IMG/VR virus record: IMGVR_UViG_3300046683_000307
Span: 1-41,050 of that record
Length of the DNA: 41,050 nt
Strand: one strand, 5' to 3'
DNA from: a virus
Shown: piece by piece, positions 1,901 through 37,838 of the stretch
Layout of the letters: the number at the start of each line of letters is the position of its first letter
How positions within the stretch are numbered: position 1 is the stretch's first letter
Made by a program: the position numbers and the translations under genes
The notes under the pieces: model-generated
What the model saw: the letters and a program-made list of their open reading frames with translations, nothing else
Told to the model about the DNA's origin: nothing
Databases searched by the model: none

Positions 1901-1923
1901 TTGACGCCAGCGGCGAGCGCGTT
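1901..1923 (+). promoter_or_regulatory. Late-promoter-like motif, copy 1
   Basis: TTGACG, six variable bases, then GCGAGCGCGTT. This is one of five + strand copies, each in a gap before a late gene block. This copy precedes the first late operon (2215 onward). Confidence 0.7.
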
Positions 1924-2017
1924 GAGGGCGCGTCGCATGGTGCGGACCCTGGACCCTGCTCTGATGCCGCGCGACGCGCTGGCCGGCGCGCTCGGCGGCG
2001 CGCACGTCGGCGCGACC

Positions 2018-2060
2018 GGGGGCGGGGGCGCCCGCGACGCCTACCGGGGGGGCGGGGGGG
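2018..2060 (+). other. G-quadruplex-like G-runs
   Basis: Runs of five G (2018-2022, 2024-2028) and of seven G (2046-2052, 2054-2060), each pair separated by one C. The second pair alone satisfies the G3N1-7 four-tract rule. It lies in the non-coding control region. Confidence 0.5.
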
Positions 2061-2088
2061 TGTTCACCCGTGGGTCCTCTCCCATATC

Positions 2089-2160
2089 GCCCGCTCGCGC
2101 GTGTACGCGAACGGTGACGCTGCAAGCCGGGGCGCCCGCTCGCGCGTGTACGCGAACGGT
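2089..2160. repeat. Twin 27-bp direct repeats
   Basis: Two exact 27-bp copies at 2089-2115 and 2134-2160, start to start 45 bp. Each contains the small palindrome CGCGTGTACGCG. The 45-bp period is a multiple of three and the frame of the gene at 2215 is open through it, so a longer gene with a 15-residue repeat cannot be fully excluded. Confidence 0.75.
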
Positions 2161-2214
2161 CAAGCTGCGACGCCAGCCGACCTTGTTGCACGCGCTCTTG
2201 CACGGGAGGGCGTG

Positions 2215-2526
2215 GTGAACCTGGAGGCGGTGGTGCGGGAGTTGCTGCGGCGCGGTCATCGGGTGACGGCGGCGGAGCGGACCTGGAATGGCGGGGTGGT
2301 GGTTGGGTTTGAGATTATGGGGCCGGGCGATCCGCCAACGTGGCTCAAGGCGGTCCAGGCGCCGACGCTGGACCCGGACGCGGTCGAGCGGTCGTTGCGG
2401 GCCTGGAAGGACAGTGTGATCCGCGATCTGGCGGAGGACCGGGCCAGTCCGATTGTCCGCCGGATGATTGCGGAGCATGGCCAGGATCGGGTTTTTCGGG
2501 CGCTAGGGATGCGGGCCGATGCGTGA
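2215..2526 (+). CDS. Hypothetical protein, 103 aa, first gene of the late operon
   Basis: The GTG at 2215 is chosen because GGGAGGG at 2204-2210 gives normal spacing; the adjacent GTG at 2212 is too close. The frame is open much further upstream, but that stretch consists of repeats. The C-terminal half is helical and charged (ERSLRAWKDSVIRDLAEDRA...RMIAEHGQDRVFRALG). No family recognised. It opens a chain of five tightly overlapping small genes leading to the portal. Confidence 0.65.
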   Translation: MNLEAVVRELLRRGHRVTAAERTWNGGVVVGFEIMGPGDPPTWLKAVQAPTLDPDAVERSLRAWKDSVIRDLAEDRASPIVRRMIAEHGQDRVFRALGMRADA

Positions 2527-2764
2527 CGTGCGGACGGAAATCAACGTCGAGGTCGAGGCGGTGGCCTATGCGATTGGCAAGGTGATCGCCCGCAAGGCGC
2601 TGGCCGGTGATCCGAAGGGCCGGCGGCTGGATGCGCTGGGCCAGTTGACGGCGATTCACGAGTTGGCGTTGAGCATGATGCGCGAGTTGCCGGAGGAAGC
2701 GGCGGCGGCGATTGCGGCGTTGCGTAAGCTGGATGCGGCGCCGGAGCCGGAGGACGCGGCGTGA
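2519..2764 (+). CDS. Hypothetical protein, 81 aa
   Basis: A small, mostly helical, acidic protein (VEVEAVAYAIGKVIARKALAG). Its ATG overlaps the previous gene by 8 bp and its stop overlaps the next start, so all are probably co-translated. No family recognised. Confidence 0.65.
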   Translation: MRDVRTEINVEVEAVAYAIGKVIARKALAGDPKGRRLDALGQLTAIHELALSMMRELPEEAAAAIAALRKLDAAPEPEDAA

Positions 2765-3051
2765 GCGATCCGGTGACTTTGCCTCAGGCGGTGGCGTTGA
2801 TGATCCAGATGCGTCGGCGCGGCTGGCCAGTGGTGGGGGCGGATGGGCTCGATGCGGCGCGCATTCAACTGATGCTTGAGGCGCCGGATGGAACGGCGGT
2901 GGGCCTGGAGTTTGAGTTGCCGGTGAGTTTAGCGGTGATCCAGGCGCGCGCGGCGATGGCCATGCGGCCATGGCTGGGCGCCAATCGCAACGGCTTTGAT
3001 CGCACGGGGCAATGCGTGCGCGGCCAGGGGACGCGGGAGTTGGTCCGGTGA
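2761..3051 (+). CDS. Hypothetical protein, 96 aa
   Basis: GTG start overlapping the previous stop (GTGA). The protein alternates a helical N-terminus (LPQAVALMIQMRRRGWPVVGA) with a beta-like central part (IQLMLEAPDGTAVGLEFELP). Function unknown; it belongs to the small-gene cluster before the portal gene. Confidence 0.62.
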   Translation: MSDPVTLPQAVALMIQMRRRGWPVVGADGLDAARIQLMLEAPDGTAVGLEFELPVSLAVIQARAAMAMRPWLGANRNGFDRTGQCVRGQGTRELVR

Positions 3052-3266: not shown

Positions 3267-3520
3267 ACGTGGTGGCGAATCTGCGAACGGATGGGCCGCT
3301 GGCGGTGCGGCTGCTGGTGACGCATGCCGATGATTTTGGGCGGGACCTGATCACGGCGCGCAAAAAGCTGGAGGCGGCGGAGCTTGAGGTTCGCCGGATT
3401 GAAAAGGCGCGCGCGGACGTTGCGGAGGCAATCGGGGTTCTCGGGTTCACTTATGAGCCGGAGGAAACGGTTCGGGCGGCTGAAATTGCGCGGATCGGCG
3501 GCAAGGGGGCGCGGTCGTGA
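3263..3520 (+). CDS. Coiled-coil hypothetical protein, 85 aa
   Basis: Residues about 28-60 form a likely coiled coil (ITARKKLEAAELEVRRIEKA) followed by DVAEAIGVLGFTYEPEE. The gene after the portal (5687) has the same plan, a coiled coil followed by DVAAALDVLGGNPEP, so the two may be distant paralogues flanking the portal. ATGA overlap with the upstream gene and GTGA overlap with the portal start. Confidence 0.62.
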   Translation: MNVVANLRTDGPLAVRLLVTHADDFGRDLITARKKLEAAELEVRRIEKARADVAEAIGVLGFTYEPEETVRAAEIARIGGKGARS

Positions 3521-5694
3521 CAGACGCCTATGTTCCGCCTGGCGGGCCGCAATTCGACAAACAGAAGACGCCGGCGGAGTCCGGGCCGGGCGAGGACGAT
3601 GATCGCCTGCTGGAAATGTTCGACCGCTGGGATGCCGATTTGCAAGGCCATTGGAGCCAGTGGGTCGAGGACGCCAAGGGTTGGTATGACTTTGTCGCCG
3701 GGAAGCAATGGACCGTCGATGAGGTCGCGCAAATGGAGGAAAACCGCAAAATCCCGGTGACGTTCAACTTGATTGCGCCGGTGGTCGATGCGGTGAACGG
3801 GGCGGAAATCCAGGACCGCCAACAGGTCCAGTATTATCCGCGCACGCCAGACGTCCAGGATACCGGGATTGCGGACGTGCTGACGCAAGGCGCGGAATAC
3901 GTGGTCGATCAGTGTAATGGCGATCAGGAGGACACCGAATCGTTCTGGGATTGCCTCGTCTGCGGGATCGGCTGGACGGAAACCCGCGTCGAGGTCGAGG
4001 GGGAACACGCCTCGATCATCAAGGAACGGGTTGATCCGCTGCAAATGAAGGCGGACGCCTGCTCGCGCAAACGCTGCTTCGAGGATGGGCGCTATGTGAA
4101 GCGCGAAATCCCGATGAGCGAGGACGAATTTGAGGACTTCAAGGCGGAGATTGGCCGGGCCGACCTGGAGGGCGTGGACGGCGGGATCGGCAATGGTAAG
4201 CGGCTGACGGTGGTCAATCCGCGCCAGCGTTATACGCACGGCATGCTGGGCGAGGGCGGCGATCAGGACCCGGACGTCGTCGTCTGCGAGTGGCAATGGT
4301 GGGAGCGCGAGGCGGTGCACGTCGCGCCGATGCCGCACCCGACGCAGCCGGGCGTCACCAAACTGACGCCAATGTCGCCGGCGGAGTTCGGCGCCGCGCG
4401 GCAAACGCAACCGGGCCTTAGGTCGGTGCAATCGACGCGCAAGGTCTATTACCGGGCGTTTGTCGGGGACGGCGCGGTGCTGTTCAAGGAAACGCTCAAG
4501 GAAAATTCGTTCCGCTACAAGGCGATAACTGGCAAGCGGGATCGCAACGCCGGAACCTATTACGGCCTCGTCAAGCCGATGGTCGAGCCCGGCAAGTTCG
4601 TCAACAAGCTGTATTCGGAAGTCCTCCACATCGTCCGCACCAACGCCAACGGCGGGATGCTGCTGGAGGAGGACGCGGTCGTTGACGTCAAACAGTTCGA
4701 GCGGACCTGGAGCGCGACCGACAAAATTACCTGGGTGAAGGCGGGCGCGCTGTCCGGCGCCCACGGCGCCAAGATGATGCCGAAGGCGCCGCCGCCGGTG
4801 CAACCGGCGCTGTTCCAACTGATGGAATTCGCCCGCGACATGGTGAAAGCCTGCACGGGCGTCAACGAGGAGATTTTGGGCCTTGTCGGGCGCGAGCAAG
4901 CCGGCGTCCTCGAACAACAGCGCAAACAGGCCGCTTACGGGATTCTGTCGTCGTTCTTCGACGCCAAGCGCCGCTATCAGCGCGAGCAAGGCCGGCTGTT
5001 GCTGGTGATGATGCGGCTCTATCTGCCGGAAGACTTCCTGGTCCGCATCCTGGCGGACGGGGAAAAGAAATATGTTCCGCTGGCGATGGCGCTCCAGTCC
5101 GAGGAATTTGACGTGATCGTGGATGAGGCGCCGGCCTCTCCGAACGTGAAAGCCAAGGTTGCGGCGATCCTGATGCCGCTTTTGCCGCAACTGCTGGAGG
5201 GCGGCATGATCGGGCCGGAAGTGGTCGCGGACATGTTCCAGTTCCTCGATCTGCCGGCGGTGGTCGCGGAAAAGCTGGGCGCGGCGGTGCGCCAGCAAAA
5301 CGCCAAGGACGCGGCGCCCGACCCGAAACAGGAGCAAGCCGAGGCGGACCAACAAGCCAACCTCCAGGCCGATACGGCGGAGAAGGGCGCGGCGGCGCTC
5401 TCCAAGCGGGCCAAGGCGTTCAAGGACGTGACCGACGCGCAAACCGCGCAAATCGGCCTTGGGGTCGAATTCCTGCAACAGCAAAGCCCGGCGCCGGCGC
5501 CAACAGCCCCGACGAACGGCGCCGGGCCTCCTGGCGGCGGCTTAGGTATGCCGCCGGGCGGTGGTCCCCCTGCTCCCGCCAGTCTGTCAGGGGGACCGCC
5601 TGAGGGGCCGCCGCCGGGCGCGGCGCCGCCGGAGGAAGGCGAGGCGCCTCCGCCAGGCGGGCCGCCGCCAATGATGGGAGGGCCGAATGGGTGA
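3517..5694 (+). CDS. Portal protein
   Basis: At 725 aa it has the size and position of a P22-type portal, the dodecameric ring through which DNA enters and leaves the head. The N-terminal part (WTVDEVAQMEENRKIPVTFN, then INxNG-like LIAPVVDAVNGAEIQDRQQV) is typical of this family in short-tailed phages. Residues from about 655 onward form an unusual Pro/Gly-rich tail (GPPGGGLGMPPGGGPP and similar), likely disordered. Start GTG at 3517 overlaps the previous stop; a scaffold-like protein and the capsid protein follow downstream. Confidence 0.88.
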   Translation: MTDAYVPPGGPQFDKQKTPAESGPGEDDDRLLEMFDRWDADLQGHWSQWVEDAKGWYDFVAGKQWTVDEVAQMEENRKIPVTFNLIAPVVDAVNGAEIQDRQQVQYYPRTPDVQDTGIADVLTQGAEYVVDQCNGDQEDTESFWDCLVCGIGWTETRVEVEGEHASIIKERVDPLQMKADACSRKRCFEDGRYVKREIPMSEDEFEDFKAEIGRADLEGVDGGIGNGKRLTVVNPRQRYTHGMLGEGGDQDPDVVVCEWQWWEREAVHVAPMPHPTQPGVTKLTPMSPAEFGAARQTQPGLRSVQSTRKVYYRAFVGDGAVLFKETLKENSFRYKAITGKRDRNAGTYYGLVKPMVEPGKFVNKLYSEVLHIVRTNANGGMLLEEDAVVDVKQFERTWSATDKITWVKAGALSGAHGAKMMPKAPPPVQPALFQLMEFARDMVKACTGVNEEILGLVGREQAGVLEQQRKQAAYGILSSFFDAKRRYQREQGRLLLVMMRLYLPEDFLVRILADGEKKYVPLAMALQSEEFDVIVDEAPASPNVKAKVAAILMPLLPQLLEGGMIGPEVVADMFQFLDLPAVVAEKLGAAVRQQNAKDAAPDPKQEQAEADQQANLQADTAEKGAAALSKRAKAFKDVTDAQTAQIGLGVEFLQQQSPAPAPTAPTNGAGPPGGGLGMPPGGGPPAPASLSGGPPEGPPPGAAPPEEGEAPPPGGPPPMMGGPNG

Positions 5695-7440: not shown

Positions 7441-7463
7441 TTGACGAAAGTTGCGAGCGCGTT
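7441..7463 (+). promoter_or_regulatory. Late-promoter-like motif, copy 2
   Basis: TTGACG-AAAGTT-GCGAGCGCGTT, 143 bp before the major capsid start. The last 17 bases TTGCGAGCGCGTTTTTG continue identically into the copy at 37816. Confidence 0.72.
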
Positions 7464-7605: not shown

Positions 7606-8676
7606 ATGGCGACCACCAATTATGGCGTCAACGCTCCTGAGGCGGTGAAGCTGTGGCGTTCCCAACTCGCACGTGAGGCGCTGAAAGCGACCTGGGTGCA
7701 AAAGTTCATCGGGGATAGCTCCGACGATATTCTCCAGGTGTTCGGGGAAACCGGCAAAGACGCGGGCGACCGCGTTACAGTTACGCTCCGCATGCAACTC
7801 AATGGCGACGGGGTCGCCGGCGACGCGACGCTAGAAGGCAATGAGGAACCGTTGACGACGTTCACGGATAACCTCTTTGTCGATCAGTTACGGCATGCTG
7901 TCCGCTCCGGCGGCAAGATGACAGAGCAACGCATTCCTTGGAAAATTCGAGAGGAGGCAATGCTAGGACTAAAAGATTGGTGGGCGGGCAGGATCGACGT
8001 TTCGTTCTTCAATCAAGTGACAGGAAACACGGCGGCGACGGACGTTCGTTACACGGGAATGAACGCCGTTGTTGGTCCGGATGCTCAACACATCGCCCGC
8101 GTGAACAACAAGGCGACGGACGAGCTTGTGATCGCCGGCGATGAAATGACGCTGACGCTGATCGACAAGATGGTTGAGAGCGCCAAGCTCGGCTCCACGA
8201 CGGCGACCGGGCCGGCTATCCGTCCGATCATGGTTGACGGGGATTCCCGGTACGTGGTCGTGCTGCATACCAAGCAAGTCACGCAACTGCGCGCGACGGC
8301 TGGCGCTGGTAGCTGGCTGGATATTCAAAAGGCGGCAATGACCGGCGACGGGTCCGAGAAAAACCCGATTATGACCGGCGCCTTGGGAATGTATAACGGC
8401 GCGGTGTTGCATGAAAGCACGCGCATTCCAAATGGAGTCAACAGCACAACCGGCGTTGCAGTAGCAACGACGCGGCGTTGTGTGCTTCTCGGTGCACAAG
8501 CGGCAGCTATTGGCTTCGGTCAAGGACAGTCGTTCAAGAATTTCGACTGGAACGAAGAATTATTTGATTATGGAAATCAGCTTGGCGTCGAAGCTGGACT
8601 TATCCATGGTCTGAAAAAGCTTCGGTTTAACTCGGCGGACTTCGGCACTATTGTCGGCGTCAGCTTCACGTCTTAG
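7606..8676 (+). CDS. Major capsid protein, N4-gp56 family
   Basis: This 356-aa protein has the typical opening of the N4-gp56 (DUF4043) coat family: a short N-arm, then AVKLWRSQLAREALKATWVQ, GDRVTVTLRMQLNGDG and WWAGRIDVSFFNQVTGN. It builds the icosahedral head around the scaffold. The length fits the family. It follows the scaffold-like gene after a 407-bp gap with a late-promoter-like motif, so it probably has its own strong promoter. Codons in the middle of the gene (about 7930-8620) look more A/T-rich than those of neighbouring genes. Confidence 0.9.
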   Translation: MATTNYGVNAPEAVKLWRSQLAREALKATWVQKFIGDSSDDILQVFGETGKDAGDRVTVTLRMQLNGDGVAGDATLEGNEEPLTTFTDNLFVDQLRHAVRSGGKMTEQRIPWKIREEAMLGLKDWWAGRIDVSFFNQVTGNTAATDVRYTGMNAVVGPDAQHIARVNNKATDELVIAGDEMTLTLIDKMVESAKLGSTTATGPAIRPIMVDGDSRYVVVLHTKQVTQLRATAGAGSWLDIQKAAMTGDGSEKNPIMTGALGMYNGAVLHESTRIPNGVNSTTGVAVATTRRCVLLGAQAAAIGFGQGQSFKNFDWNEELFDYGNQLGVEAGLIHGLKKLRFNSADFGTIVGVSFTS

Positions 8677-11293: not shown

Positions 11294-12709
11294 ATGCCGC
11301 GCATTATCGCCGCAAACCGCATTCCACGGGTTCCAATCGCCAGCCGGTCAATTGCGGTTGGGCCGGTGGTCGGCGGCGTGGCGCCGGCGACGGCGGGCGT
11401 CGGCGTGGGCGGCGGGGTGTGGGCGGCGGCGGCGCCAGATGCGCGCTTTGTGGCGGCGGACAGTTTTACAGAGGCGGTGATCGCCAGGATGCGGACGACG
11501 GGGGCGCTGCCGGCGGTTCCGCAAATCGGGCGCTATGCTGTGCCGCCGCTTACCGTCACCTTTCCGTGGACGAGCAACGGCCAGAACGGCAATTACGCAT
11601 TTAGCAATAACCGCCGCTTTTGGGCGGCGGGCGGCGGTGTCATGGCTTGGTCGCCTTCGGGGGCGAACGGGTCGAGCGGTTTAACTGTCGGGGGGTCGCA
11701 GGCGCATTGGAACATCGCCAATTTGACGTCTAACGCGATGAATATAATTCCGCTGGGGGGTGTCGCAGGGCAAATTCCCTACGGGTGCAGCTACGCTAAC
11801 GGCGAATTCCACTGGCTGACGAGTGACGGGTTTTATTCATGGGTGGCGACGTTTCCGCCACTGACGGCGCCAGCGGCGGTCAAGCGCGGCGCTGGGGCGC
11901 CGGGCGGAAGCACGAGCTACACACAATGCCAGTATGTCGCGCCGAATTACGTCATTTGGGCGTCTATCGTGGTCCCCACGGTTCCACGCTATGCGACGGA
12001 TCGCGCGACGTGGACAAACTGCACGGTTCCGGCGCTGAACGGCGACGCCGGCGGCGCCGGCAACGGCATTGTCTGGATGGTCTATGACGCGCCGCGCGCG
12101 CGGCTGGTGGCGGTCACGCAATATGGGGAAATCCTGACGAGTGCGGACGGGATTACCTTCGTCAAAACGGCGGCGCGCACGGCGGGCCAAGTCAGTTTTA
12201 CAATGGAAACGTGTTGGGTGGCGCCCTCTGGCAAGGTCTATGCCTGCGGCACGAGCGCCGGAGCTGGACAGGTTTTTGTCGCGGCGGACGTGGGGTCGCC
12301 ATGGGTCGCGCAAACTGTGGCGCTCGGCGGCGGTAAGACAATCCTGACGCGGGCCTATGACGTGAACGGGACGGCGGGCGTTACGGCGGTGCTGTTCCGC
12401 GCCACAACGGCGACGCCAACAAGCACGGAAATCGCGGTGAGCCTGGATGATGGCGCGACGTGGCTGTTCGGCACGGGCGGCGACGGTACGATGCCAGCGA
12501 ACAACGTCGATAACGGACAGAATGTGCTGTTAGCGACGGAAGGTGTGTTCGCTTCGGTGAGTGGCCTTACGTCGGGGGCTTTCGGGAGTTTTTGGGGAAG
12601 CCGTTTAGCAACGGACGCTGACATTCTGATTTCAGCGTCACAGATAGACGTCGCGTTGATCGACCTCGCGGACGGGGTGACGAAAAAGCGGTTCTGGCGG
12701 GTGAGCTAA
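11294..12709 (+). CDS. Putative tail protein with beta-propeller (BNR/Asp-box-like) repeats
   Basis: This 471-aa protein contains sialidase-type Asp-box-like sequences (SADGITFVK; SLDDGATWLFG) and repeated strands with W/Y at intervals, which suggests a beta-propeller. The first 60 residues are Gly/Ala/Val-rich (VGPVVGGVAPATAGVGVGGG) and may attach it to the tail. There is no evidence of sialidase activity: the repeats are fold markers. It could be a receptor-binding or baseplate-like component. Confidence 0.6.
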   Translation: MPRIIAANRIPRVPIASRSIAVGPVVGGVAPATAGVGVGGGVWAAAAPDARFVAADSFTEAVIARMRTTGALPAVPQIGRYAVPPLTVTFPWTSNGQNGNYAFSNNRRFWAAGGGVMAWSPSGANGSSGLTVGGSQAHWNIANLTSNAMNIIPLGGVAGQIPYGCSYANGEFHWLTSDGFYSWVATFPPLTAPAAVKRGAGAPGGSTSYTQCQYVAPNYVIWASIVVPTVPRYATDRATWTNCTVPALNGDAGGAGNGIVWMVYDAPRARLVAVTQYGEILTSADGITFVKTAARTAGQVSFTMETCWVAPSGKVYACGTSAGAGQVFVAADVGSPWVAQTVALGGGKTILTRAYDVNGTAGVTAVLFRATTATPTSTEIAVSLDDGATWLFGTGGDGTMPANNVDNGQNVLLATEGVFASVSGLTSGAFGSFWGSRLATDADILISASQIDVALIDLADGVTKKRFWRVS

Positions 12710-14508
12710 TGGCGAACATGCCGTTCCAGCCGCCGCCGGGCCTCGTCAACAACGATACGGTTTTCGCTGCGCCCGGACGCTGGGCGAACGGCTCGCTGGT
12801 GCGGTTCTTCGATGGCAACTGGCAAGTCAAAGGCGGCTGGGAGCGGCTGACGCTGACGAACCTTGGCGGGGTCTGCCGCTCGGTCCTCGGCTGGCAGGAC
12901 CCGACGTCGCAACAGAACATTGCGTTTGGCCTGCACAACGGTTTGAAGGCGTGGCGCTCGGGGCTGGTTTACGACATTACGCCGCTCGCCGCGTCTCCGA
13001 TTATCCCGATGAATTTCCCGGCAAACGCGGTCGTCAAGACGACGGCGGGCAGTCCTAGCGTCGGGCTGGTGGTGTTCGGCCATAACGCGACGGTCGGGCA
13101 GATTATCCGGATCAAGGGCGTCACGTTCCCGGTCGGCGGCAACGTCAACGCCAATGGGGATTGGGCGGTGACGTCGATCATCGACGTCAACAACGTGACC
13201 ATAACTTACACGGCCAACGCGACGTCCACGGCGAACGGCGGCGGGGTCGCCGGAACGGCGGAGATGGCGCCGTTCCACGGGTTCCAGTCGGGCCAAATCG
13301 ACGGGACCGGCGGCGCCGGCTACGGGACCGGGGCGTTCGGTGTCGGGACCTACGGGACGCCGTCCACGACGGACTATTTCCCGTTGACCTGGAGCCTCGG
13401 AACCTTCGGCGGTTTCCTGATCGCCAACCCGCGCAATCAGGGGATTTTTCTTTGGGATACGACGGCGCCGGGAAAAGCGACGGTGATTGAAACGGCGCCG
13501 GCGCAAGTCACGTTCGCGCTGGTGACGCCTTCGCGCCAAGTGCTGGCGCTCGGCTGCAACGAGGAAGTTTCCGGCGTTTTCAACAATCGGTGCATCAGGT
13601 GGTGCGACATTGAGGATTACACGGATTGGTCAAGCCTGCCGACGAACAACGCCGGCGAGTGGATTCTCGAAAGCGGCGGGCGGATTGTCTGCGGGCGGGT
13701 GGTCGGTGACTACGTTTTGGTATGGACGACGGATGGCTTGTTCTTAGGAACCTTCCTAGGCGATCCGGGGCAAACCTGGAAATTCGAGCGGCAAGGGTCC
13801 AACTGCGGGGCGATTTCGCCGGGGACGCCAATTGTGCGCGGCCAGCGCGCGGCCTGGATAAGCCCGGATCGCATGTTCTGGAATTACACGCTCGGCGGCG
13901 AGCCGGCGCCGTTCGGCTGCGACGTCCAGGACGTTTTCCAGGATCACGTTTCGCAAGGCCAGGAGGACAAGATTATCGGCGCGGCGGTGGCGCCGTTCCA
14001 AGAGCTGGTCTGGTTCTGGCCGGATGATCGCGACGGGCTGGAGGTATCGCGCGGCATGTCGGTTTCCAAGGACGGCTGGAGCCTCGACCTCTTGGCGCGC
14101 TCGGCGTTTGTGGATGCCGGGCCGCAACCTTTCCCTATCGGCGTCGCGCCAACGGGCGAGGTTTACTGGCACGAAAAGGGCAATAGCGCGGACGGCGGGG
14201 TGATCGCCGGGTTCCTGGAAAGCTCGGATTTCTACATTGGCGAGGCGGAGGGCGGGGCGCTGGTCAATGGGGTCTGGCCAGATTTCAAAAATCAGATTGG
14301 GCCGTTCAAACTGAGCTTGGCGACGCGGGAAAATCCGCAATCGACGTCGAGGACGCACGGGCCTTGGGCGCTGGCGCCCGGCCAGGGCCGGCGGTCGTTC
14401 CGCGTTTCGGGCCGGATTGTTCGCGTGCGCTATGACTTTGCGTCGGCGCCTTGCTACGCGCGCGGCGGCAAACCGCAGTTCGATATTCAGGACGTAGGAG
14501 GGCGTTGA
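12709..14508 (+). CDS. Tail (needle-hub or stabilisation-like) structural protein, 599 aa
   Basis: The start (PFQPPPGLVNNDTVFAAPGR, WANGSLVRFFDGNWQVKGGW) is shared by large podovirus tail proteins, with a later propeller-like body (GNNRC-like IRWCDIEDYTDWSSLPTNNA, DGLFLGTFLGDPGQTWKFE). It occupies the genome position of P22 gp10 (packaged-DNA stabilisation), and a similar role in the short tail is plausible. The ATG overlaps the previous stop (TAATG), and its own TGA lies inside the late-promoter-like motif at 14505. Confidence 0.65.
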   Translation: MANMPFQPPPGLVNNDTVFAAPGRWANGSLVRFFDGNWQVKGGWERLTLTNLGGVCRSVLGWQDPTSQQNIAFGLHNGLKAWRSGLVYDITPLAASPIIPMNFPANAVVKTTAGSPSVGLVVFGHNATVGQIIRIKGVTFPVGGNVNANGDWAVTSIIDVNNVTITYTANATSTANGGGVAGTAEMAPFHGFQSGQIDGTGGAGYGTGAFGVGTYGTPSTTDYFPLTWSLGTFGGFLIANPRNQGIFLWDTTAPGKATVIETAPAQVTFALVTPSRQVLALGCNEEVSGVFNNRCIRWCDIEDYTDWSSLPTNNAGEWILESGGRIVCGRVVGDYVLVWTTDGLFLGTFLGDPGQTWKFERQGSNCGAISPGTPIVRGQRAAWISPDRMFWNYTLGGEPAPFGCDVQDVFQDHVSQGQEDKIIGAAVAPFQELVWFWPDDRDGLEVSRGMSVSKDGWSLDLLARSAFVDAGPQPFPIGVAPTGEVYWHEKGNSADGGVIAGFLESSDFYIGEAEGGALVNGVWPDFKNQIGPFKLSLATRENPQSTSRTHGPWALAPGQGRRSFRVSGRIVRVRYDFASAPCYARGGKPQFDIQDVGGR

Positions 14509-14527
14509 TCTTCGGCGCGAGCGCGTT
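14505..14527 (+). promoter_or_regulatory. Late-promoter-like motif, copy 3
   Basis: TTGATC-TTCGGC-GCGAGCGCGTT; the -35-like half has two changes but the 11-bp right half is exact. The TGA in it is the stop codon of the upstream tail gene. It ends 28 bp before the start at 14555. Confidence 0.62.
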
Positions 14528-14554: not shown

Positions 14555-14998
14555 ATGAGTGAAGTCTATGACCTTGAGACGTCGGCGGAAGCGCCGGAGG
14601 AATCCGGGCTTGTCATCGACTTCGGCACAACGGTCGATCCCTTGTTGTCTCAGTGGGCGCGGTTCCGCGACCTGTTCAAGGCCAGCATGGAAGGCGGGTT
14701 CTGGACGATTGAGGACCTGGAGCAAAAGATCGCGCATCGCCGGGCGTTCTTCTTCCCTGGCCAGTCGGCGGCGATGGTCGGTGAAGTGGTGGTGTTTCCC
14801 GGCTCCGCCAAGGTGCTGCAAGTGACCTGGGCCGCCGGCGACGTCGAGGAGCTATTGCGGATGGCGCCCGGCGTCGAGGCGGTGGCGCGGATGATGGGCT
14901 GCAACGGCATGTTGATCGAGGGGCGCCCGGCCTGGGTGCGAGTGCTGAAACCGATGGGTTACGAGCATTGGTCCTCGACGGCCTATAAGGCGCTCTGA
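14555..14998 (+). CDS. Hypothetical virion-region protein, 147 aa
   Basis: A small alpha/beta protein (FKASMEGGFWTIEDLEQKIA; GEVVVFPGSAKVLQVTWAAG; VARMMGCNGMLIEGRPAWVR; MGYEHWSSTAYKAL). Its order of elements recalls an acetyltransferase-like (GNAT) fold, but I see no clear acetyl-CoA loop. Proteins of this kind often precede the ejection-protein genes in podoviruses. It is directly downstream of a late-promoter-like motif. Confidence 0.6.
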   Translation: MSEVYDLETSAEAPEESGLVIDFGTTVDPLLSQWARFRDLFKASMEGGFWTIEDLEQKIAHRRAFFFPGQSAAMVGEVVVFPGSAKVLQVTWAAGDVEELLRMAPGVEAVARMMGCNGMLIEGRPAWVRVLKPMGYEHWSSTAYKAL

Positions 14999-20879: not shown

Positions 20880-20902
20880 TTGACGTAAGCGGCGAGCGCG
20901 TT
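20880..20902 (+). promoter_or_regulatory. Late-promoter-like motif, copy 4
   Basis: TTGACG-TAAGCG-GCGAGCGCGTT, in the 135-bp gap before the spike gene at 20946. Confidence 0.72.
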
Positions 20903-22463: not shown

Positions 22464-22517
22464 GCAAGCTGCCGTCAAGCGGCGGTCAACTCAGGCGTCC
22501 GCAACTTTGTGGGAAGG

Positions 22518-22537
22518 TGTGTGGGAAAGGCCACACA
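22518..22537. promoter_or_regulatory. Inverted repeat upstream of integrase
   Basis: TGTGTGG, six bases, CCACACA, in the 256-bp gap before the integrase. A second related TGTGGGAA occurs at about 22509. Arm-type or core integrase sites are expected here, but I cannot identify attP with certainty. Confidence 0.4.
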
Positions 22538-22635
22538 AAGGCCGGTTTTACGAGACAAATACGCATGGTCAAATCTCGTGTGAACGGCCATTTCTCACCC
22601 TGCCAGGACGTCTCAACGGGGGCCTTTCCCCCATA

Positions 22636-22664
22636 GGCAACTTGCCGGTTTCCCTCAAACCTGA
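22636..22664. promoter_or_regulatory. Operator-like site before the integrase
   Basis: The perfect palindrome GGCAACTTGCC (22636-22646), then 11 bp, then the half-site AACCTGA (22658-22664). The same pair with the same 11-bp gap occurs at 30908-30936 in the immunity region. Rightward TTGCCG-17-CCTTAT (22642-22670) is a possible integrase promoter overlapping the site. Confidence 0.6.
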
Positions 22665-22692
22665 CCTTATCATTCCTGCATGTTTCACCCGA

Positions 22693-22716
22693 TTTGGGGG
22701 AACGTTTAGGGGTAAG
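22693..22716 (+). promoter_or_regulatory. Tandem G-tract boxes at the integrase start
   Basis: TTTGGGGGAACG directly followed by TTTAGGGGTAAG, ending three bases before the integrase ATG and so covering its ribosome binding site. A near-identical pair is at 1872-1894 on the other strand. Confidence 0.55.
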
Positions 22717-22719
22717 AAA

Positions 22720-24039
22720 ATGGCCAAGGTTAAGGGTCCGATCCATTCCAAGACATTTGACGGGCTGCTCAAGGCTGACGTTGAGCCGCAAAAAATCCAC
22801 GACGGCTCGGGCCTGTATCTGGTCATCGGTAAGGGCTCGCAACGCTCGTGGATTTTTAAGTACCGGCTGAACGGCAAGAGCCGGGAATTGGGCCTGGGCT
22901 CGGCGCATGACTTCGGGCTGTCGGAAGCGCGCGACGCGCGGGACGTCGCGGCTAAGATGGTCGCCAAAAAGATTGATCCCAAAGACGTCCGCGATCAGGA
23001 AAAGGCGGAGGCTCTGGCGACCTCGCGGCGGTCGGACAAATCGTTCTGGGAGCTTGTCCCGGACGCCATGAAAAACCCCATGGTCTGCGGCCTCAAGGGG
23101 ATCAAGCAACGCGCGGAATGGGAGGGGTCCTTAGCGCCGCACCTGACGGGCGGGATCACGTCCAAGGCGCCTCAGGACATTTCACGGGACGACGTTGCCA
23201 CGGCCATTCTGGCGATCCGCGCGCGCGGAAGCCTGAGCCAAGCCAACCGGGTGACGCGCCGGTTCTTCCTGATGTTCGAGTGGTGCGCCGGCAAAGGCTA
23301 CATTGCGGAGGACGCGGTGAACCCGGCGACGTTCGCAGGCCGGCATGCCGCCGCGCTGCCTAAGGTCGTCACCCGGAAAATCGGACATACCTCCATCCCT
23401 TACCGGGATATTCGGACGGTGGCGGCGAGCCTGCGGGCGCGTGAGCCGCGCATGACGGCGCTTTGTGTCGAGTGGATTTTGCTATCGGCGGTGCGCCTGG
23501 AGAACGGCGTCGTGGCGTCCTGGACGGAAATTGACCGGGAGGCGCGGGTCTGGACGATTCCGGCGGCCAAGATGAAAAAGGCTGGCCATGGGGATCACAA
23601 GGTTCCGCTGACGGCGCGCATGCTGGAGATTCTGGATGAGCTTGCGGCGCTCGGCTCGGGCCTGGGTCACAACCGGGGTTCGCTGCTGCTGTTCCCGAAC
23701 GCGGACGGCGAGGCGTTCAACCGTCAAACCATGCGGTTCACGCTGCGCGAAGTGTACGGCAAAAAGATCGAGCGCGAGGACGGGTCCGTCCGCAAGGCGT
23801 CGATCCATGGCCTGCGGGCGACGTTCCGGACGTGGGGCGAAAACCAACTGTCGGACGACGGCAAGAGCCATCGTTACGATGAAAAGACCCTGGAGCTTTG
23901 CTTGGCTCACGTGGTCGGGGACGACGCGCGCAACGCCTATGTGCGGGAAAACAATGTCGAGGTCCGCCGCGCGATCATGGACGATTGGAACGATTACGTT
24001 TGCGGCCTCAACGTTATCCCGTTCGTGAAACGGGCCTAG
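22720..24039 (+). CDS. int: Tyrosine recombinase integrase (P4-like, DUF4102 type)
   Basis: The start is the ATG at 22720 (MAKVKG), after AGGGG; the open frame to 22507 covers regulatory repeats. At 439 aa it has the N-terminal P4-integrase arm domain (IHDGSGLYLVIGKGSQRSWI), a core-binding middle, and the catalytic set: R259 (LLSAVRLENG), K284/K286, H363-x2-R366 (SIHGLRATFR), H397 (LAHVVG) and Y407 (NAYVRE). It inserts phage DNA at a bacterial att site, so the phage is temperate. Its 3' end overlaps the convergent excisionase-like gene by 26 bp. Confidence 0.92.
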   Translation: MAKVKGPIHSKTFDGLLKADVEPQKIHDGSGLYLVIGKGSQRSWIFKYRLNGKSRELGLGSAHDFGLSEARDARDVAAKMVAKKIDPKDVRDQEKAEALATSRRSDKSFWELVPDAMKNPMVCGLKGIKQRAEWEGSLAPHLTGGITSKAPQDISRDDVATAILAIRARGSLSQANRVTRRFFLMFEWCAGKGYIAEDAVNPATFAGRHAAALPKVVTRKIGHTSIPYRDIRTVAASLRAREPRMTALCVEWILLSAVRLENGVVASWTEIDREARVWTIPAAKMKKAGHGDHKVPLTARMLEILDELAALGSGLGHNRGSLLLFPNADGEAFNRQTMRFTLREVYGKKIEREDGSVRKASIHGLRATFRTWGENQLSDDGKSHRYDEKTLELCLAHVVGDDARNAYVRENNVEVRRAIMDDWNDYVCGLNVIPFVKRA

Positions 24040-26714: not shown

Positions 26715-26945
26715 TCAAGCTTGCGGGCGGAGGGTTTCCAGGGTGTCAGTAAGGGTGAATTTCTGGAGGGTGACGGTCTGGCCGGTCTTGATGACGTGTT
26801 CTCTGGCCAGCGTGCGGATGATCGGGTCCGCGACAATCTCCAGGCTCATTGCGCAAAGTGGCGCGTGGTGATCGCCAAACATGGCGCCGACAAGCGACGG
26901 CCTGCCGTCCTGGCAAATCGTCGTCCAGGCGTAAAAATCAGCCAT
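26715..26945 (-). CDS. Hypothetical protein, 76 aa
   Basis: A small protein (MADFYAWTTICQDGRPSLVG; then SLEIVADPIIRTLAREHVIK). No family recognised. The ATG at 26945 overlaps the stop of the three-HTH gene by 8 bp. Confidence 0.58.
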   Translation of the reverse strand: MADFYAWTTICQDGRPSLVGAMFGDHHAPLCAMSLEIVADPIIRTLAREHVIKTGQTVTLQKFTLTDTLETLRPQA

Positions 26946-27978
26946 TGGCGACGGCCTTGCGGAAACTGGCGTTATGGACGACGGGCGGGAAGACGGCGCC
27001 TTTCTGCTTGGTGCGGGCGATCACGTCTTTGACGAACGTGTCGCTCTCTCCGCACATGGCGGCGATTTCCGCAGGACCCATGCCGGCCATGCGGTTCAGG
27101 ACGACGCTCTGCTGCAAGTCGAGGAAGGCGTCTGGCGTCATATTGCGGCGCGTGGCGGCTTGGCGGACCTGATATTTGGCGGGTCCTGGCAACGCCTCGA
27201 ACGGGCCGAAAAAGCGGGTGGGCCGGATGACGTTCGCCGGCGCCGGCGGAACGTCTTCAAACTTGGCGGGGATCGCCGGGCGGGCGGCGTAAGGAATGCT
27301 GATGCCGGCGGCGCGGGCGTTGGAAAGCCATAGGCTGACGGACTTCTGACTTTCGCCGGTGGCGGTGACAATCTCCGGATAGCCTAGACCCTGCTGGGCC
27401 ATGGTGACGGCGAGCGCCTTGCGGCGAAGGTATTCCGCCGGGCTGATGCCACGGGCGACGGCGGCTTTCTCGACAATGGCCACGCCTTGGCCGGAGAGGT
27501 CATTGAAGCTGGTTTTGAATTCCTTGACCTCCAGCGGGCGCCCGCGTGGCTTGGTGCGGAGGTTCGGATACTGGACGCCGGCGCGCTTGGCTTCGGCCAG
27601 GGCGCGGGTGACGTGCGAATAAGGCATGTCGAGGCGCTTGGCGATCTGCTGGGCGTGGATACCCTGGAGCCGGAGTTCAACGGCGCGGACGTTAGGGTCG
27701 TCGGTCTTGACCGGCTTCCTGGGCGCCTCCAGGACCGGGCGCGGCGCCTGGGCCTGAGCGGCGGTCAACAGTGGGTCGGGCTGCTGCATCGACGCCGGGG
27801 CGCCCGTGTAGGTTTCGGCTATGACCTGGGCGTGTTGAATCACGCTCTCGCGGAGCGCCCCTGGTGGTATGCGGGCGAAGGCGTCGAATAGCTCGGCGGC
27901 GCCGGGCATGACGAGGACGCGCGCTAACATGAGGGCGTCGAGCGACGCCGGCGCGGGTTTCAGGTTGTCGGATTTCAT
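26938..27978 (-). CDS. Protein with three tandem HTH modules, 346 aa
   Basis: The start is ATG 27978 (MKSDNLKPAP) after AAGGGGG; an upstream ATG at 28026 overlaps the previous gene. Three modules share one plan, an HTH followed by a helix ending in Ala...Gly...Pro: about 97-138 (LQGIHAQQIAKRLDMPYSHV), 187-229 (GLGYPEIVTATGESQKSVSL) and 290-331 (MGPAEIAAMCGESDTFVKDV). The second and third are each preceded by ARGISPAEYL / RRNMTPDAFL, so a unit of about 100 residues has been duplicated. Likely a DNA-binding regulator or architectural protein; no known family assigned. Confidence 0.65.
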   Translation of the reverse strand: MKSDNLKPAPASLDALMLARVLVMPGAAELFDAFARIPPGALRESVIQHAQVIAETYTGAPASMQQPDPLLTAAQAQAPRPVLEAPRKPVKTDDPNVRAVELRLQGIHAQQIAKRLDMPYSHVTRALAEAKRAGVQYPNLRTKPRGRPLEVKEFKTSFNDLSGQGVAIVEKAAVARGISPAEYLRRKALAVTMAQQGLGYPEIVTATGESQKSVSLWLSNARAAGISIPYAARPAIPAKFEDVPPAPANVIRPTRFFGPFEALPGPAKYQVRQAATRRNMTPDAFLDLQQSVVLNRMAGMGPAEIAAMCGESDTFVKDVIARTKQKGAVFPPVVHNASFRKAVANG

Positions 27979-30993: not shown

Positions 30994-31578
30994 TCAGGGC
31001 AAAAGCGAATGAACGGCGCTCGCCCATACAATTTCCTGATCCATGAGCGGGTCCGCGCTCGCGGAAATCAAGTGAAAGCGGCCTTTGATCTGGCTGCGGA
31101 TGAGCCGGCAAACATGCATGCTGTCATGAGCCTGGACGACGCAAAGCCGGCCATGAAGCTCCGGCGTCGGCGGCTGGCGGGTGTCCTCGAACACCGCGCG
31201 CCAGCCGGCAAACAAGGCGCCTAGCGCAACGCTCTCGATCAGAATTGCGCGGGTTGTGCTGCTCGCGGTCGAGGGGGCGGGCGTCTCTATGTGGTCCTCT
31301 GTGGCGGTATATAGATGCGCCTGGGCGTCGGCGGCGACGTAGCCGACGACGGGGATATAGGCCGGCGCGGCGCCGGCGCGTCCGTAAAGCAACCATTCCG
31401 GCGAGGTCTGGAAAAAGGCGGCGTAACGCTGGGCCTTGGCCGGCGGGATGGTGCGGGTTTTTGTCTCGTGCTGCTGGTAGGTGGCGACGGCCATGCCTAG
31501 TGCGGCGGCGGCGTCCTTAGCCGTCTTGAACCCACGCAATAGCCGGGCCTGCTTGAGCCTGTCTCCGGGCGTATCCAT
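30994..31578 (-). CDS. CI-like repressor (XRE HTH plus S24-like C-terminal domain)
   Basis: 194 aa. Residues 5-65 are an XRE helix-turn-helix (RLKQARLLRGFKTAKDAAAA, LGMAVATYQQHETKTRTIPP). The C-terminal part (IPVVGYVAADAQAHLY; ESVALGALFAGWRAVFEDT; GRLCVVQAHD; WASAVHSLLP) follows the S24/LexA-like fold, but the usual catalytic Ser in a GDSM-like context is not visible, so self-cleavage is doubtful. It is divergent from the Cro-like gene, with palindromic operators between, so it is the likely lysogeny repressor. Confidence 0.85.
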   Translation of the reverse strand: MDTPGDRLKQARLLRGFKTAKDAAAALGMAVATYQQHETKTRTIPPAKAQRYAAFFQTSPEWLLYGRAGAAPAYIPVVGYVAADAQAHLYTATEDHIETPAPSTASSTTRAILIESVALGALFAGWRAVFEDTRQPPTPELHGRLCVVQAHDSMHVCRLIRSQIKGRFHLISASADPLMDQEIVWASAVHSLLP

Positions 31579-34075: not shown

Positions 34076-34098
34076 GGCCAGGGCCTCGCGTCCTGGTC
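34076..34098 (+). terminator. Hairpin before the primase-helicase gene
   Basis: GGCCAGG (34076-34082) pairs with CCTGGTC (34092-34098, one G-T pair), followed by GGCTTTC. Weak terminator or attenuator. Confidence 0.35.
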
Positions 34099-34117
34099 GG
34101 CTTTCTGGAGCTGGCCG

Positions 34118-36226
34118 GTGGCGATGCCGCAATTTAACGACGAATGGGCCAGCGCGTCAGAATGGGCGGCGATGTATCGCGCCCATGGGCTCCAGGTCGT
34201 CCCGGCGCATGATCCGCGCGAGGGCGGCCAGTGGAAACGTCCGTTTGGGGACTGGATCGAATTCCAGGACGCGCTTGCGCCGGAGGCGGTGTTTACGCGC
34301 TGGTATGATCCGGCGACGGGTGAGCATCGCCAGCGCAACAACATGGGTCTGGTGACGGGCGCGGCCTCTGGTGGGCTGCTGGTGATCGACCTGGACCGCA
34401 AGGACGGGTCAAAGGCGTTCCAGTGGTGGGCGGACCTCCTGGCCGAACATTGCCACGGCCAGGAGCCGCTAACCTGGGTCCAGCGGACGGGCGGCGGCGG
34501 GCGGCAACTGCTGTTCCGGGCGCCGGAAGGCTGGGCGCCGCCAACCTTCAAAGCGCCGTCCATGTGTATCGACGTCCGGGGCCAGGGCGGTTTCATCATG
34601 GCGCCGCCGTCGCGGCATAGCTCGGGCAACGGTTATGATTGGGAGCCGGGGCGGGCGCCGTGGTCGGCTGATCTGGCGGACGCGCCGGAGTGGCTGATTG
34701 AAGCGGTCGAGGACTTGCGCCTGGAGCATGGTGGCGGCGCAAGCCAGCCTGCCGGCGACCGCGAAAAGTCCGCTAGACCGGAAGCTGTAACAAACGCTTT
34801 CGGGCTCCAGGTCGATGATCGGGAACACAAGCTCCAGGTGGCGGTATGGGGGGCGATTGTTGACCTCTACCGGGAAAGCCCAATTCCGCCGGTCGAGGCG
34901 GTCCAGGAGGCGGAAATCGCCCGGCTCTGGACGCAATATGAGGTGACGACGAAAAGCCGGCTGGCGGCGGTCGAGGGCCTGACGAACGGCGACCTCCTGG
35001 AGCGCGAGGGTCGCGGGCTCTCTGAGCTTCGGCGCAAGTGGGCCTATGCCATGCGGCGTTGGGATACCAAGGTCCGCGAGGCGGCGGGCGTCGCCAAGCC
35101 GGCCAGGGCGAACGGCGCGACGGGGCCGATGGAAACGCCGGCGCCTGACGGTGACGGCGAGGATGAGCCGGCGGCTGCGGATGATCCGCCGGTAATCGAC
35201 GCGGCGAGCTTCGTAGGCGATCCGCCGGCGCGCGGCTGGCTGGTCGAGGACTGGATCGTGGAGGGCGTGGTGAATTCCCTCTATGGGCCGGGCGGGACCG
35301 GTAAATCGCTGCTCGCGCAACAGCTTGCTTATGCCTCAATCACGGGAAGCTCCTGGCTCGGCTTGCCAGTGAAGCAAGGCGGCGTCCTGGCGGTGTTCTG
35401 CGAGGACGACATAGACGAATTGCATCGGCGGCATGCGTCCATCCGGACGGCGAGCGGGCATGTGATCGGGAACCCCTACGCCGGCGCTATGCTTTGGCCG
35501 CGCATCGGCGCCTCCAATATCCTCGTCTCCTGGCACAAGGACGGGCCGGTCCTCGGGACCTTCCACGGGCGGCTGGTCGCCAAGCTGCAAGAGCTAAACC
35601 CGGCGCTGTTGATCCTGGACACGATTGCGGACGTGTTCGCCGGCGAGGAACGCGACCGGGCGCAAGTCAACTTCTTCCTCAAGGAAATCCTCGGCGGGCT
35701 GATCCTCGGACAAGCCGCGCAAGGCCATAGGCTGACAATCCTGCTGCTCGGTCATCCGTCGATCCAGGGCCGGCAAACCGGCGGCTCCGGGTTCTCCGGA
35801 TCGACGGCCTGGGAGAACGGGGTGCGGTCCCGGCTGTACCTCACTAAGCCGGAAACCGGGGGCCAGGATGAACGACTGCTGACGCGGGGAAAGGCCAACT
35901 ATGCCGCCTCTGGCGAGGAAACCGGGCTGAAACTGATCTGGGATAACGGGGCGTTCAACGCCGGCGGAACGGTGGATGAGCGGGCGTTGACGCAAGCCAA
36001 GCGGCGGGTGGTCGAACGGGTCGAGTGGGCGTGGAAAACCGGCGCTCCGTATATGGAGCGGCGAGGTCACAACCGGAACCTATACGGGGCGCTCGGCCAG
36101 GAGCTAGGGCGCGAGGGGTTCGCGCGTCCGGTGGTGCTGGAGGCGATCAGTGAAGCGGTCGAGGACGGCACAATCCGGCTCTCGATGAACAACACAAAAC
36201 GCGGCTGGAGGACGGCCAATGACTAG
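34118..36226 (+). CDS. Primase-helicase (prim-pol domain plus RecA-like ATPase)
   Basis: 702 aa. The N-terminal bifunctional primase-polymerase domain has DLD at 91-93, GGGGRQ at 125-130 (a Gln where His is usual) and DVRGQGGFI at 152-160. The C-terminal AAA_25/RecA-like ATPase has Walker A GPGGTGKS (390-397) and Walker B LLILD (497-501). It should prime and unwind phage DNA. GTG 34118 fits the GGAG seven bases upstream better than ATG 34124. The Gln substitution may alter priming activity. Confidence 0.85.
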   Translation: MAMPQFNDEWASASEWAAMYRAHGLQVVPAHDPREGGQWKRPFGDWIEFQDALAPEAVFTRWYDPATGEHRQRNNMGLVTGAASGGLLVIDLDRKDGSKAFQWWADLLAEHCHGQEPLTWVQRTGGGGRQLLFRAPEGWAPPTFKAPSMCIDVRGQGGFIMAPPSRHSSGNGYDWEPGRAPWSADLADAPEWLIEAVEDLRLEHGGGASQPAGDREKSARPEAVTNAFGLQVDDREHKLQVAVWGAIVDLYRESPIPPVEAVQEAEIARLWTQYEVTTKSRLAAVEGLTNGDLLEREGRGLSELRRKWAYAMRRWDTKVREAAGVAKPARANGATGPMETPAPDGDGEDEPAAADDPPVIDAASFVGDPPARGWLVEDWIVEGVVNSLYGPGGTGKSLLAQQLAYASITGSSWLGLPVKQGGVLAVFCEDDIDELHRRHASIRTASGHVIGNPYAGAMLWPRIGASNILVSWHKDGPVLGTFHGRLVAKLQELNPALLILDTIADVFAGEERDRAQVNFFLKEILGGLILGQAAQGHRLTILLLGHPSIQGRQTGGSGFSGSTAWENGVRSRLYLTKPETGGQDERLLTRGKANYAASGEETGLKLIWDNGAFNAGGTVDERALTQAKRRVVERVEWAWKTGAPYMERRGHNRNLYGALGQELGREGFARPVVLEAISEAVEDGTIRLSMNNTKRGWRTAND

Positions 36227-36581
36227 GTCTAAAGCCAGAACAAACGTGCGCCTTCGCGAACGCCTTAGCGGAAGGCGTTCAAAAATAAGCGGCGGAATTC
36301 ATTCGCAGAATTGGGGTCAACGCCTTGAACGTAAGGCGCAAAGGCGACGACGGCCAATTATCGAGGAATTACAGAGGACTTACGCTTTGTTTCCTGCGCG
36401 CGCTCGCGCGGGATTTTGTAACCCCTTTCTTACGAAAGGGGGTTCCAAAATATACGCACACATGCGCGCGCGCTCCGGGGTTCAAGCCATGCTGTCCGGC
36501 GACGTCAAAGGCGTCATAGGCGTCGCGGCGGCTGGCGCCGCCTTTGCCGCCTTCTCCGCCGCCGGGGAGGTTCTGGCATGA
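36219..36581 (+). CDS. Doubtful basic protein, up to 120 aa
   Basis: The frame starts within the helicase 3' end and stops with an ATGA overlap on the next gene, which supports translation of at least its 3' part. The first 80 residues are extremely basic and lie on A/T-richer, hairpin-forming DNA. The last 30 from the ATG at 36490 (MLSGDVKGVIGVAAAGAAFA) look more gene-like, with a small hydrophobic segment. It may be a shorter gene than shown. Confidence 0.4.
   Translation: MTRSKARTNVRLRERLSGRRSKISGGIHSQNWGQRLERKAQRRRRPIIEELQRTYALFPARARAGFCNPFLTKGGSKIYAHMRARSGVQAMLSGDVKGVIGVAAAGAAFAAFSAAGEVLA
36258..36280. other. Hairpin in the structured segment after the primase-helicase gene
   Basis: GAACGCCTT (36258-36266), loop AGCGG, AAGGCGTTC (36272-36280), a 9-bp perfect stem followed by AAAAAT. 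A related CGCCTT...AAGGCG hairpin follows at 36321-36338. Confidence 0.55.
36420..36444. other. Second strong hairpin in the same segment
   Basis: AACCCCTTTC (36420-36429), loop TTAC, GAAAGGGGGTT (36434-36444, one bulged G). Together with 36258-36338 it marks an A/T-richer, highly structured stretch, a possible replication origin or processing site. Confidence 0.5.
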
Positions 36582-36817
36582 CGGGGAAGCTGGAAACGCT
36601 TGCCGCCTGGCGAGTGAATGGCGGGTCGAGCCGGCGGAGTTATTGGAACCTCGTGACGGCGACGCGGCGACTAGAGCGACGCTTGCACAACAGCATGGCC
36701 CATACGCCGCGACCGCGGGCGGCGGACTTGGCGCGGTGGCGGGCGATGCAAGCGGACCTGGACGCCAAGCGGGAAGCGATTGTGCAATTAGACCTGGAGC
36801 TTGGCCACAATGCCTAG
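36578..36817 (+). CDS. Small basic helical protein, 79 aa
   Basis: Arg-rich and helical (LVTATRRLERRLHNSMA; RWRAMQADLDAKREAIVQLD). No family recognised. Overlaps the upstream stop (ATGA) and the next gene by 8 bp. Confidence 0.58.
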   Translation: MTGKLETLAAWRVNGGSSRRSYWNLVTATRRLERRLHNSMAHTPRPRAADLARWRAMQADLDAKREAIVQLDLELGHNA

Positions 36818-37397
36818 TCCTGAGGATTGCGGCCTGCTGGCCGGTCTGCTGGAGGCGGTCGAGGGCGCCAGGGCGGAAGCCTATCGGGAGTGGGGCGCCT
36901 ATCGGCTCGAACGGCTGGCCGGGCTGCACAACCTGGATTTGCTGGCCAGATTCCGGCGCCAGCAAATGTCCTGGGCCTCGGCGCTCCAGACGGCTTTCCA
37001 GGCGGAGGTTGTTCCGGCCGATTTGCTGGCGACGGTCCAGGCCAAGGCGGCGGCGATGCAACGCGGCTGGACGGCGCTCGCGGCCTGGGCGGCGGAGGCT
37101 GGCCATAGGCCGGCGGCGCCGTGGGTGTGGGAAACCATGCTGGCGGACGGCTCCATCGTGGCGCTCGTCCAGGACGACGCCGGCGCCGCCAAGGTGATTG
37201 CGGACGGGCGGGACGTGTCGGTCTGGACGGTGCGGGAGGTCGCCAACCTGATCGACGCGGCGACCGACGCGCTCAAGCTGGAGCGGACGCATATGCCGGG
37301 GGCGAAGTTCAAGGCGGCGGACGTTGGCAATCCGCTCGGGGCGCCGGAGTGGTCGGACGCCGGCGACGCGATCCCGTTTGGAGAGGCGCAAGCATGA
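36810..37397 (+). CDS. Hypothetical helical protein, 195 aa
   Basis: ATG 36810 (MPSPEDCGLL) has GGAG about 11 bases upstream. The protein is Ala/Trp-rich and helical (LLEAVEGARAEAYREWGAYR; WASALQTAFQAEVVPADLLA) with a later alpha/beta part (SIVALVQDDAGAAKVIADGR). No family recognised; it precedes the GcrA-like gene in the same operon. Confidence 0.6.
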   Translation: MPSPEDCGLLAGLLEAVEGARAEAYREWGAYRLERLAGLHNLDLLARFRRQQMSWASALQTAFQAEVVPADLLATVQAKAAAMQRGWTALAAWAAEAGHRPAAPWVWETMLADGSIVALVQDDAGAAKVIADGRDVSVWTVREVANLIDAATDALKLERTHMPGAKFKAADVGNPLGAPEWSDAGDAIPFGEAQA

Positions 37398-37819
37398 CGA
37401 TGATATGGACCTGTGAAAGCGTGGCCACGCTCAAGGACGGCTGGCGGCGTGGCCTCGATGCGCCGGAGCTGGCGCGCATGCTCGGGACAAGCCGGGCGGC
37501 GATCCGGTCCAAGCGGATGCGGCTTGGCCTGCCGTCGCGGACGGAGGCGCAAATCGCGCTGTCGAACCGGGAGCGGGGCTTGGCGGTGTGTCCGCGCTCG
37601 CGGTCAAGTCCGGTCGGGATGGCGGACGGCGGGCGGCTGGCGCCGCTGATCGGCTCGGCGCCGCGCCCCTGGCCGTTGCGGGACGTCGGGGAATGCGCGT
37701 TCCCGGTCGCCGGCTCGGGGGCGCTGACGCAAAGCTGTTGTCTGCCGGTCGAGCCGGGCGAGGGCTATTGCCGGGGTCATCTGGTGATCTTGCGGAGCGG
37801 GGCGGCGATAGGGGCTTGA
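37394..37819 (+). CDS. GcrA-family transcription regulator
   Basis: 141 aa. The N-terminal HTH (MIWTCESVATLKDGWRRGLD, APELARMLGTSRAAIRSKRM, RLGLPSR) matches the GcrA cell-cycle regulator family of Alphaproteobacteria. The C-terminal part carries C101, C115/C116, C126 and H129 (CAFPVAG; CCLPVEPGEGYCRGHL), as in GcrA. Host GcrA binds sigma70 and methylated GANTC promoters. It is the last gene before a late-promoter-like motif that starts on its stop codon, so I propose a late-gene activator role. Confidence 0.78.
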   Translation: MTMIWTCESVATLKDGWRRGLDAPELARMLGTSRAAIRSKRMRLGLPSRTEAQIALSNRERGLAVCPRSRSSPVGMADGGRLAPLIGSAPRPWPLRDVGECAFPVAGSGALTQSCCLPVEPGEGYCRGHLVILRSGAAIGA

Positions 37820-37838
37820 CGGGATTTGCGAGCGCGTT
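37816..37838 (+). promoter_or_regulatory. Late-promoter-like motif, copy 5
   Basis: TTGACG-GGATTT-GCGAGCGCGTT. The TGA within it is the stop codon of the GcrA-like gene. It lies 38 bp before the small gene that opens the terminase block. Confidence 0.72.

Follow-up and report, generated by a model that had tools for sequence, protein, structure and literature searches.

The five copies of a 23-nt motif, TTGACG-N6-GCGAGCGCGTT, in the phage genome analysed here (41,050 nt; the whole stretch is referred to as the window) are likely to be late promoters that are used by the host RNA polymerase with sigma70 and carry a spacer element bound by a GcrA-like protein of the phage itself; transcript, binding or infection data are not available. 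Sequence comparison showed the existence of a site family in related phages, the identity of the sites within one phage, their spacing, the homology of the protein to GcrA, and the covariation between its recognition helix and bases of the site.

In the proposed mechanism, host RNA polymerase with sigma70 would read the late promoters, with TTGAC(G) serving as the -35 element, followed by a 17-bp spacer and a degenerate -10 keeping mainly -11A. The spacer bases at about -23 to -13 (GCGAGCGCGTT in this phage) would be the binding site of the GcrA-like protein, whose gene closes the delayed-early operon. In analogy to GcrA of Caulobacter, the C-terminal domain of this protein would hold sigma70 domain 2, and its helix-turn-helix (HTH) would grip the spacer, compensating for the missing -10. 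GcrA is a sigma2-binding cofactor that stimulates open-complex formation (PMC7403470), and would therefore fit a promoter lacking a -10. All late blocks would be switched on together, and some downstream genes would start at or beside +1 and hence be leaderless. The use of sigma70, the activation, its timing and the leaderless start are inferred.

Genome organisation and location of the motif copies

The window carries a direct terminal repeat of 127 nt (1–127 and 40924–41050) and is thus a complete, circularly closed 41-kb genome; it belongs to a temperate phage with a P22-type portal. The motif was exact at four sites and had two mismatches in the copy at 14505 (TTGATC); no sixth copy was found in the window when both strands were searched with up to 3 mismatches. 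Five copies stand against 0.47 expected by chance, and five were reached in 0 of 100 shuffles. All five lie on the + strand, and each directly precedes a late block, so that the claim of the initial annotation in this respect, including the TTGATC variant, held in both the window scan and the shuffles. Coordinates are collected in Table 1.

Table 1 Features of the window; promoter assignments are putative
Feature	Position	Strand	Remark
Late promoter site 1	1901..1923	+	-35 TTGACG, right half GCGAGCGCGTT; precedes small genes and portal
Portal	3517–5694		
Late promoter site 2	7441..7463	+	165 bp upstream of capsid ATG
Capsid	7606–8676		
Late promoter site 3	14505..14527	+	TTGATC; precedes gene 14555–14998, ejection protein
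Late promoter site 4	20880..20902	+	precedes gene 20946–22283
Integrase	22507–24039		
Repressor	30994–31578	-	
Primase-polymerase	34118–36226		
195-aa gene	36810..37397	+	function unknown; directly before gcrA-like gene, 19/19 relatives
gcrA-like gene	37394..37819	+	N-terminal HTH DNA-binding domain, linker, C-terminal CxxPV..CC..YCxGH region
Codons of recognition-helix residues S39 and R43	37508..37522	+	S39 tracks site base 16, R43 tracks base 14
Late promoter site 5	37816..37838	+	precedes packaging genes: ORF at 37876, TerS, TerL
TerS/TerL	38067–40106		TerS from 38067, TerL from 38538

At site 1, an ATG at 1937 coincides with the predicted +1. The TTGATC of site 3 is a constrained variant. 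It overlaps the stop codon of the upstream ORF 12709–14508, and at this locus relatives carry TTGA(A/T/C), the variant recurring among them as TTGAA or TTGAT. In several relatives the ATG of the conserved gene at the site 3 locus is found at +36 to +40. At site 5 the stop codon TGA of the gcrA-like gene lies within the TTGACG of the -35 element.

The host is inferred to be an alphaproteobacterium from the GcrA-like protein and from Paracoccus and Rhizobium phages, whose portals are distantly related to that of this phage. A host search of genome contigs with the 195-aa protein and the portal gave no match, and a plasmid search with the portal yielded distant proteins only.

Site family and promoter anatomy in related phages

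A capsid search for relatives returned 80 loci, and in most of the closer relatives TTGAC was present at the same spot, 141–187 bp upstream of the capsid gene, with a different right half. In a comparison of about 20 contigs from related phages, TTGAC, the left half, was kept at the same places and the right half, common to all sites of one phage, differed from phage to phage: ACGAACGCGTT (four times in G005), GCGCACG(C/G)CC(C/T) (four times in G008), CTGCTCCCT (four times in G015), TGATCACTC (three times in G010), ATGCACGCT (three times in G025) and GCGGACGTATC (twice in L257). When capsid and terminase sites were chosen by position only, their right halves had 9.5 of 11 bases in common if both came from one genome and 6.0 of 11 if they came from different genomes, an agreement equalled in 0 of 200,000 permutations (p<5e-6). 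The N6 stretch was nearly free (capsid–terminase identity 2.5/6 within versus 1.9/6 between genomes). Several terminase sites in other phages were placed by eye, with TTGC instead of TTGA. Neither a recurrent site family nor a detectable GcrA-like protein was found in two relatives, G024 and G028.

The exact 23-nt pattern occurred at 50 loci in IMG/VR, twice only in L017 and L054, both close relatives; among the loci with one copy were several close relatives, and the remainder look like single chance matches. The right half GCGAGCGCGTT is not general but confined to this phage and its closest relatives, other phages carrying their own. The fixed right half described in the initial annotation held in this sense, within one phage, and the random scatter of the motif in related phages that would have refuted that annotation was not observed.

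A scan of each genome with the right half of its own phage yielded 62 late-strand sites, against 5 weak matches on the opposite strand. For the promoter anatomy, the 58 sites with N6 spacing were aligned on TTGAC, and the A25 and ATG counts were made over all 62. An A at position 25, which corresponds to -11 if TTGACG is the -35 and the spacer is 17 bp, was present in 47 of the 62 (p about 5e-23), and nothing else stood out at the -10 location of the 58 aligned sites, where no TATAAT-like element was found. The sigma70 -35 left half and the 17-bp spacing noted earlier were therefore upheld, as was the absence of a normal -10, yet with one conserved -10 base. ATG codons clustered at positions 36–40, the predicted +1 (19/62 sites, p about 7e-11), including the starts of the first late gene and of the conserved gene after site 3 (MDGE...TTVDPLLSQW); since this is where +1 should be, some late mRNAs may be leaderless. 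A second ATG cluster at positions 61–65, mostly at terminase sites, leaves room for a normal leader.

Of the marks of a sigma70 promoter, a TTGACA-like -35, a 17-bp spacer and a conserved -11A were present and a TATAAT-like -10 was absent. The layout of a late-activator regulon of the Mu C or P2 Ogr type, namely several dispersed promoters before late blocks with a common putative activator site, was also present, the dependence of late transcription on the activator gene being inferred. From sequence alone, without transcript data, the sites are inferred to be a sigma70-like promoter without a real -10, to which a phage-specific spacer element is added. The suggestion that they form an activator-dependent or novel late-promoter class is supported by the comparative data: the -35 does not vary, the right half differs from phage to phage, the distances to -11A and +1 are fixed, and the sites are confined to the late strand.

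Two other readings of the motif were considered very unlikely. The first, that the whole 23 nt are a promoter read by a divergent RNA polymerase or sigma factor of the phage, would be in line with a motif that is long and fixed within one genome. Against this, no such polymerase was detected among the phage proteins scanned, in agreement with the earlier remark that none is visible, and TTGAC and the 17-bp distance to the A are constant with a variable middle, the pattern expected of sigma70 with a cofactor. Alternatively, the lysogenic repressor could bind the motifs as operators and so keep the late genes silent in the prophage: some temperate phages have multiple dispersed identical sites (stoperators), and the phage has a repressor. 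However, the repressor is present in only 6 of 19 relatives with the same architecture, and the sites are asymmetric, confined to a single strand and at a fixed distance to -11A and +1.

As a separate observation, the element TTGACA-N17-(T/C)TAGAACCTAAC occurs twice on the non-late strand in each of two distant relatives, G018 (IMGVR_UViG_3300046707_000091) and L082. These copies have a real -10 and resemble early promoters of the sigma70 type, or operators.

The GcrA-like protein and covariation with the spacer element

The candidate activator, overlooked by the initial annotation, is encoded directly before the terminase copy of the motif. The ORF belongs to the GcrA family (PF07750, 35.8 bits at a curated cut-off of 26.9, which was exceeded in 16 of 31 phage records), and the family profile aligned over its full length to Caulobacter GcrA 7YE1 (E 1.3e-11), covering the C-terminal C..P..C..YC..H region of 7YE1_G. 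For a model of the first 45 residues, the GcrA DNA-binding domain 5YIV was ranked first by Foldseek (TM 0.91, rmsd 1.0, 49% identity). No sigma-interacting-domain (SID) chain was among the matches of the Foldseek fold search with the protein; the C-terminal domain was thus recognised via the sequence profile and not by fold search, and sigma binding is inferred. The gene adjoins the 195-aa gene and the terminase in 17 of 19 relatives, the two without being G024 and G028. It is possible that the 195-aa protein is a partner of the GcrA-like protein.

None of the right halves contained GANTC, and a nearby GANTC was seen at 2 of the 62 sites. Since GANTC is missing from the right halves, the protein is regarded as a GcrA-family member of altered specificity and not as a functional orthologue. 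A search of 50,697 phage records with the phage form gave no match; the Caulobacter GcrA DNA-binding domain matched 31 phages, of which those tested were without a TTGAC-N6 site family.

Residue 39 of the recognition helix (X in V-R-X-K-R) was R or K in all 6 phages with C at base 16 and neither in all 17 phages without it (23 phages, Fisher 1e-5). On the TerL tree, residue 39 and base 16 had changed five times each, and the independent pairs agreed in 4/4 well-supported cases and in 5/5 overall, a phylogenetic sign test with 4–5 pairs being unable to reach 0.05. In the strict set, i.e. the sites without those placed by eye, the association of R or K at residue 43 with C14 had no exception, and neither had that of residue 39 with C16. 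A column scan of the GcrA-like, 195-aa and TerL proteins selected residue 39 for base 16 and residue 43 for base 14, the two residues being one helical turn apart. When about 3,100 columns from 15 phage proteins were compared, only these two had the exact R/K–C pattern. The full GcrA alignment diverged too much to serve as a pattern. Some columns from other proteins reached equal scores in plain mutual information, since they follow the family tree or take many states, and the case therefore rests on the R/K–C pattern, on the fact that a single recognition helix holds both columns, and on the site data. An Arg or Lys facing the G of a C–G pair is ordinary recognition-helix chemistry.

The rule for residue 39 and base 16 was noticed on the first part of the data, before later loci were added. 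These supplied only non-R/K cases, all of which agreed (L189, L255, L283; N->G in L257, T->A in L282), two of the later-added sites having been placed by eye. One of the three sites of G007 was discordant (capsid GCGCACG with a residue G helix), perhaps by recombination, because G008 has the same capsid-site right half. Covariation at bases 15 and 17 was left uninterpreted, as TerL or 195-aa protein columns tracked both equally well.

It could be argued that the right half is read by another DNA-binding protein of the phage, e.g. that encoded at 26938–27978 (-), which has 346 aa, two HTH-like regions (HTH_23 and sigma70-region-4-like matches) and counterparts in 16 of 19 relatives, and one column of which tracks base 16 (E with C). 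This is unlikely: the column is gapped and outside the annotated HTH regions, the Arg/Lys-to-C pattern that both GcrA columns have is found in none of its columns, either for base 14 or for base 16, and G024 and G028 lack a recurrent site family together with a detectable GcrA-like protein. For the GcrA-like protein as the reader, we infer from sequence alone that protein and DNA tag changed together between phages, which suggests which amino acid reads which base.

A bolder reading, to which we incline without much margin, is that the sites constitute a distinct class of late promoter with a sigma70 -35 and no -10, the spacer of which is read by a phage GcrA whose helix was reprogrammed away from methylated GAnTC, giving each phage a private, mutually exclusive late code via residues 39 and 43.

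Relation to known systems

GcrA and phage late activators are each already known; for their proposed combination, a phage GcrA as late activator with a non-GANTC spacer element, no report was found in the searchable literature. With GcrA of Caulobacter and other Alphaproteobacteria (PF07750; PDB 5YIU–5YIX, 7YE1/7YE2; PMC7403470, PMC3667746) the phage protein shares the domain order and a full-length profile match, and the same sigma2-cofactor action is inferred. Host GcrA is directed mainly to m6A-methylated GAnTC, whereas the phage right halves are without GANTC, and the recognition-helix contacts of the phage protein appear changed and variable between phages. GcrA sites of the GANTC type were not clustered in a motif survey of alphaproteobacterial phages (PMC9437464). 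Phage structural genes are GcrA-dependent in the Brevundimonas subvibrioides prophage operon Bresu_0058–0084, which depends on the host GcrA, unlike the use of a phage-own GcrA proposed here (PMC7987155).

Mu C, P2 Ogr and lambda/P22 Q are late activators from delayed-early genes, and Mu and P2 have several dispersed late promoters. The present system would be alike in the delayed-early activator gene and, as in Mu and P2, in its dispersed late promoters. The DNA sites of Mu C and P2 Ogr lie close to the -35 or upstream of it, and Q acts by antitermination; the protein considered here is unrelated to these, being of GcrA type, with its putative element in the -35/-10 spacer.

Soil phages of one family seem to switch on their late genes through a form of GcrA, a bacterial cell-cycle regulator, that they encode themselves, although transcript and binding data are lacking. 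This would provide a concrete function for phage-encoded GcrA homologs, hitherto guessed to act on the host cell cycle. A family of sigma70 cofactors that is known to read methylated DNA would apparently have been retargeted to ordinary sequence. The natural variants supply protein–site pairs from which one could learn the rules of DNA reading by GcrA and the way in which phage late programmes are kept separate. The homolog gp222 of phiCbK is likewise phage-encoded and was proposed to alter the replicative state or cell cycle of the host, with no late-promoter role proposed in the relevant sections (PMC3556154).

A double-HTH GcrA-like protein is encoded by the distant relative G020 (L097), in which TTGACATCC(A/G)T(A/C)AACGAA is repeated at 3972, 6544, 9839 and 16321, a site family of different build.
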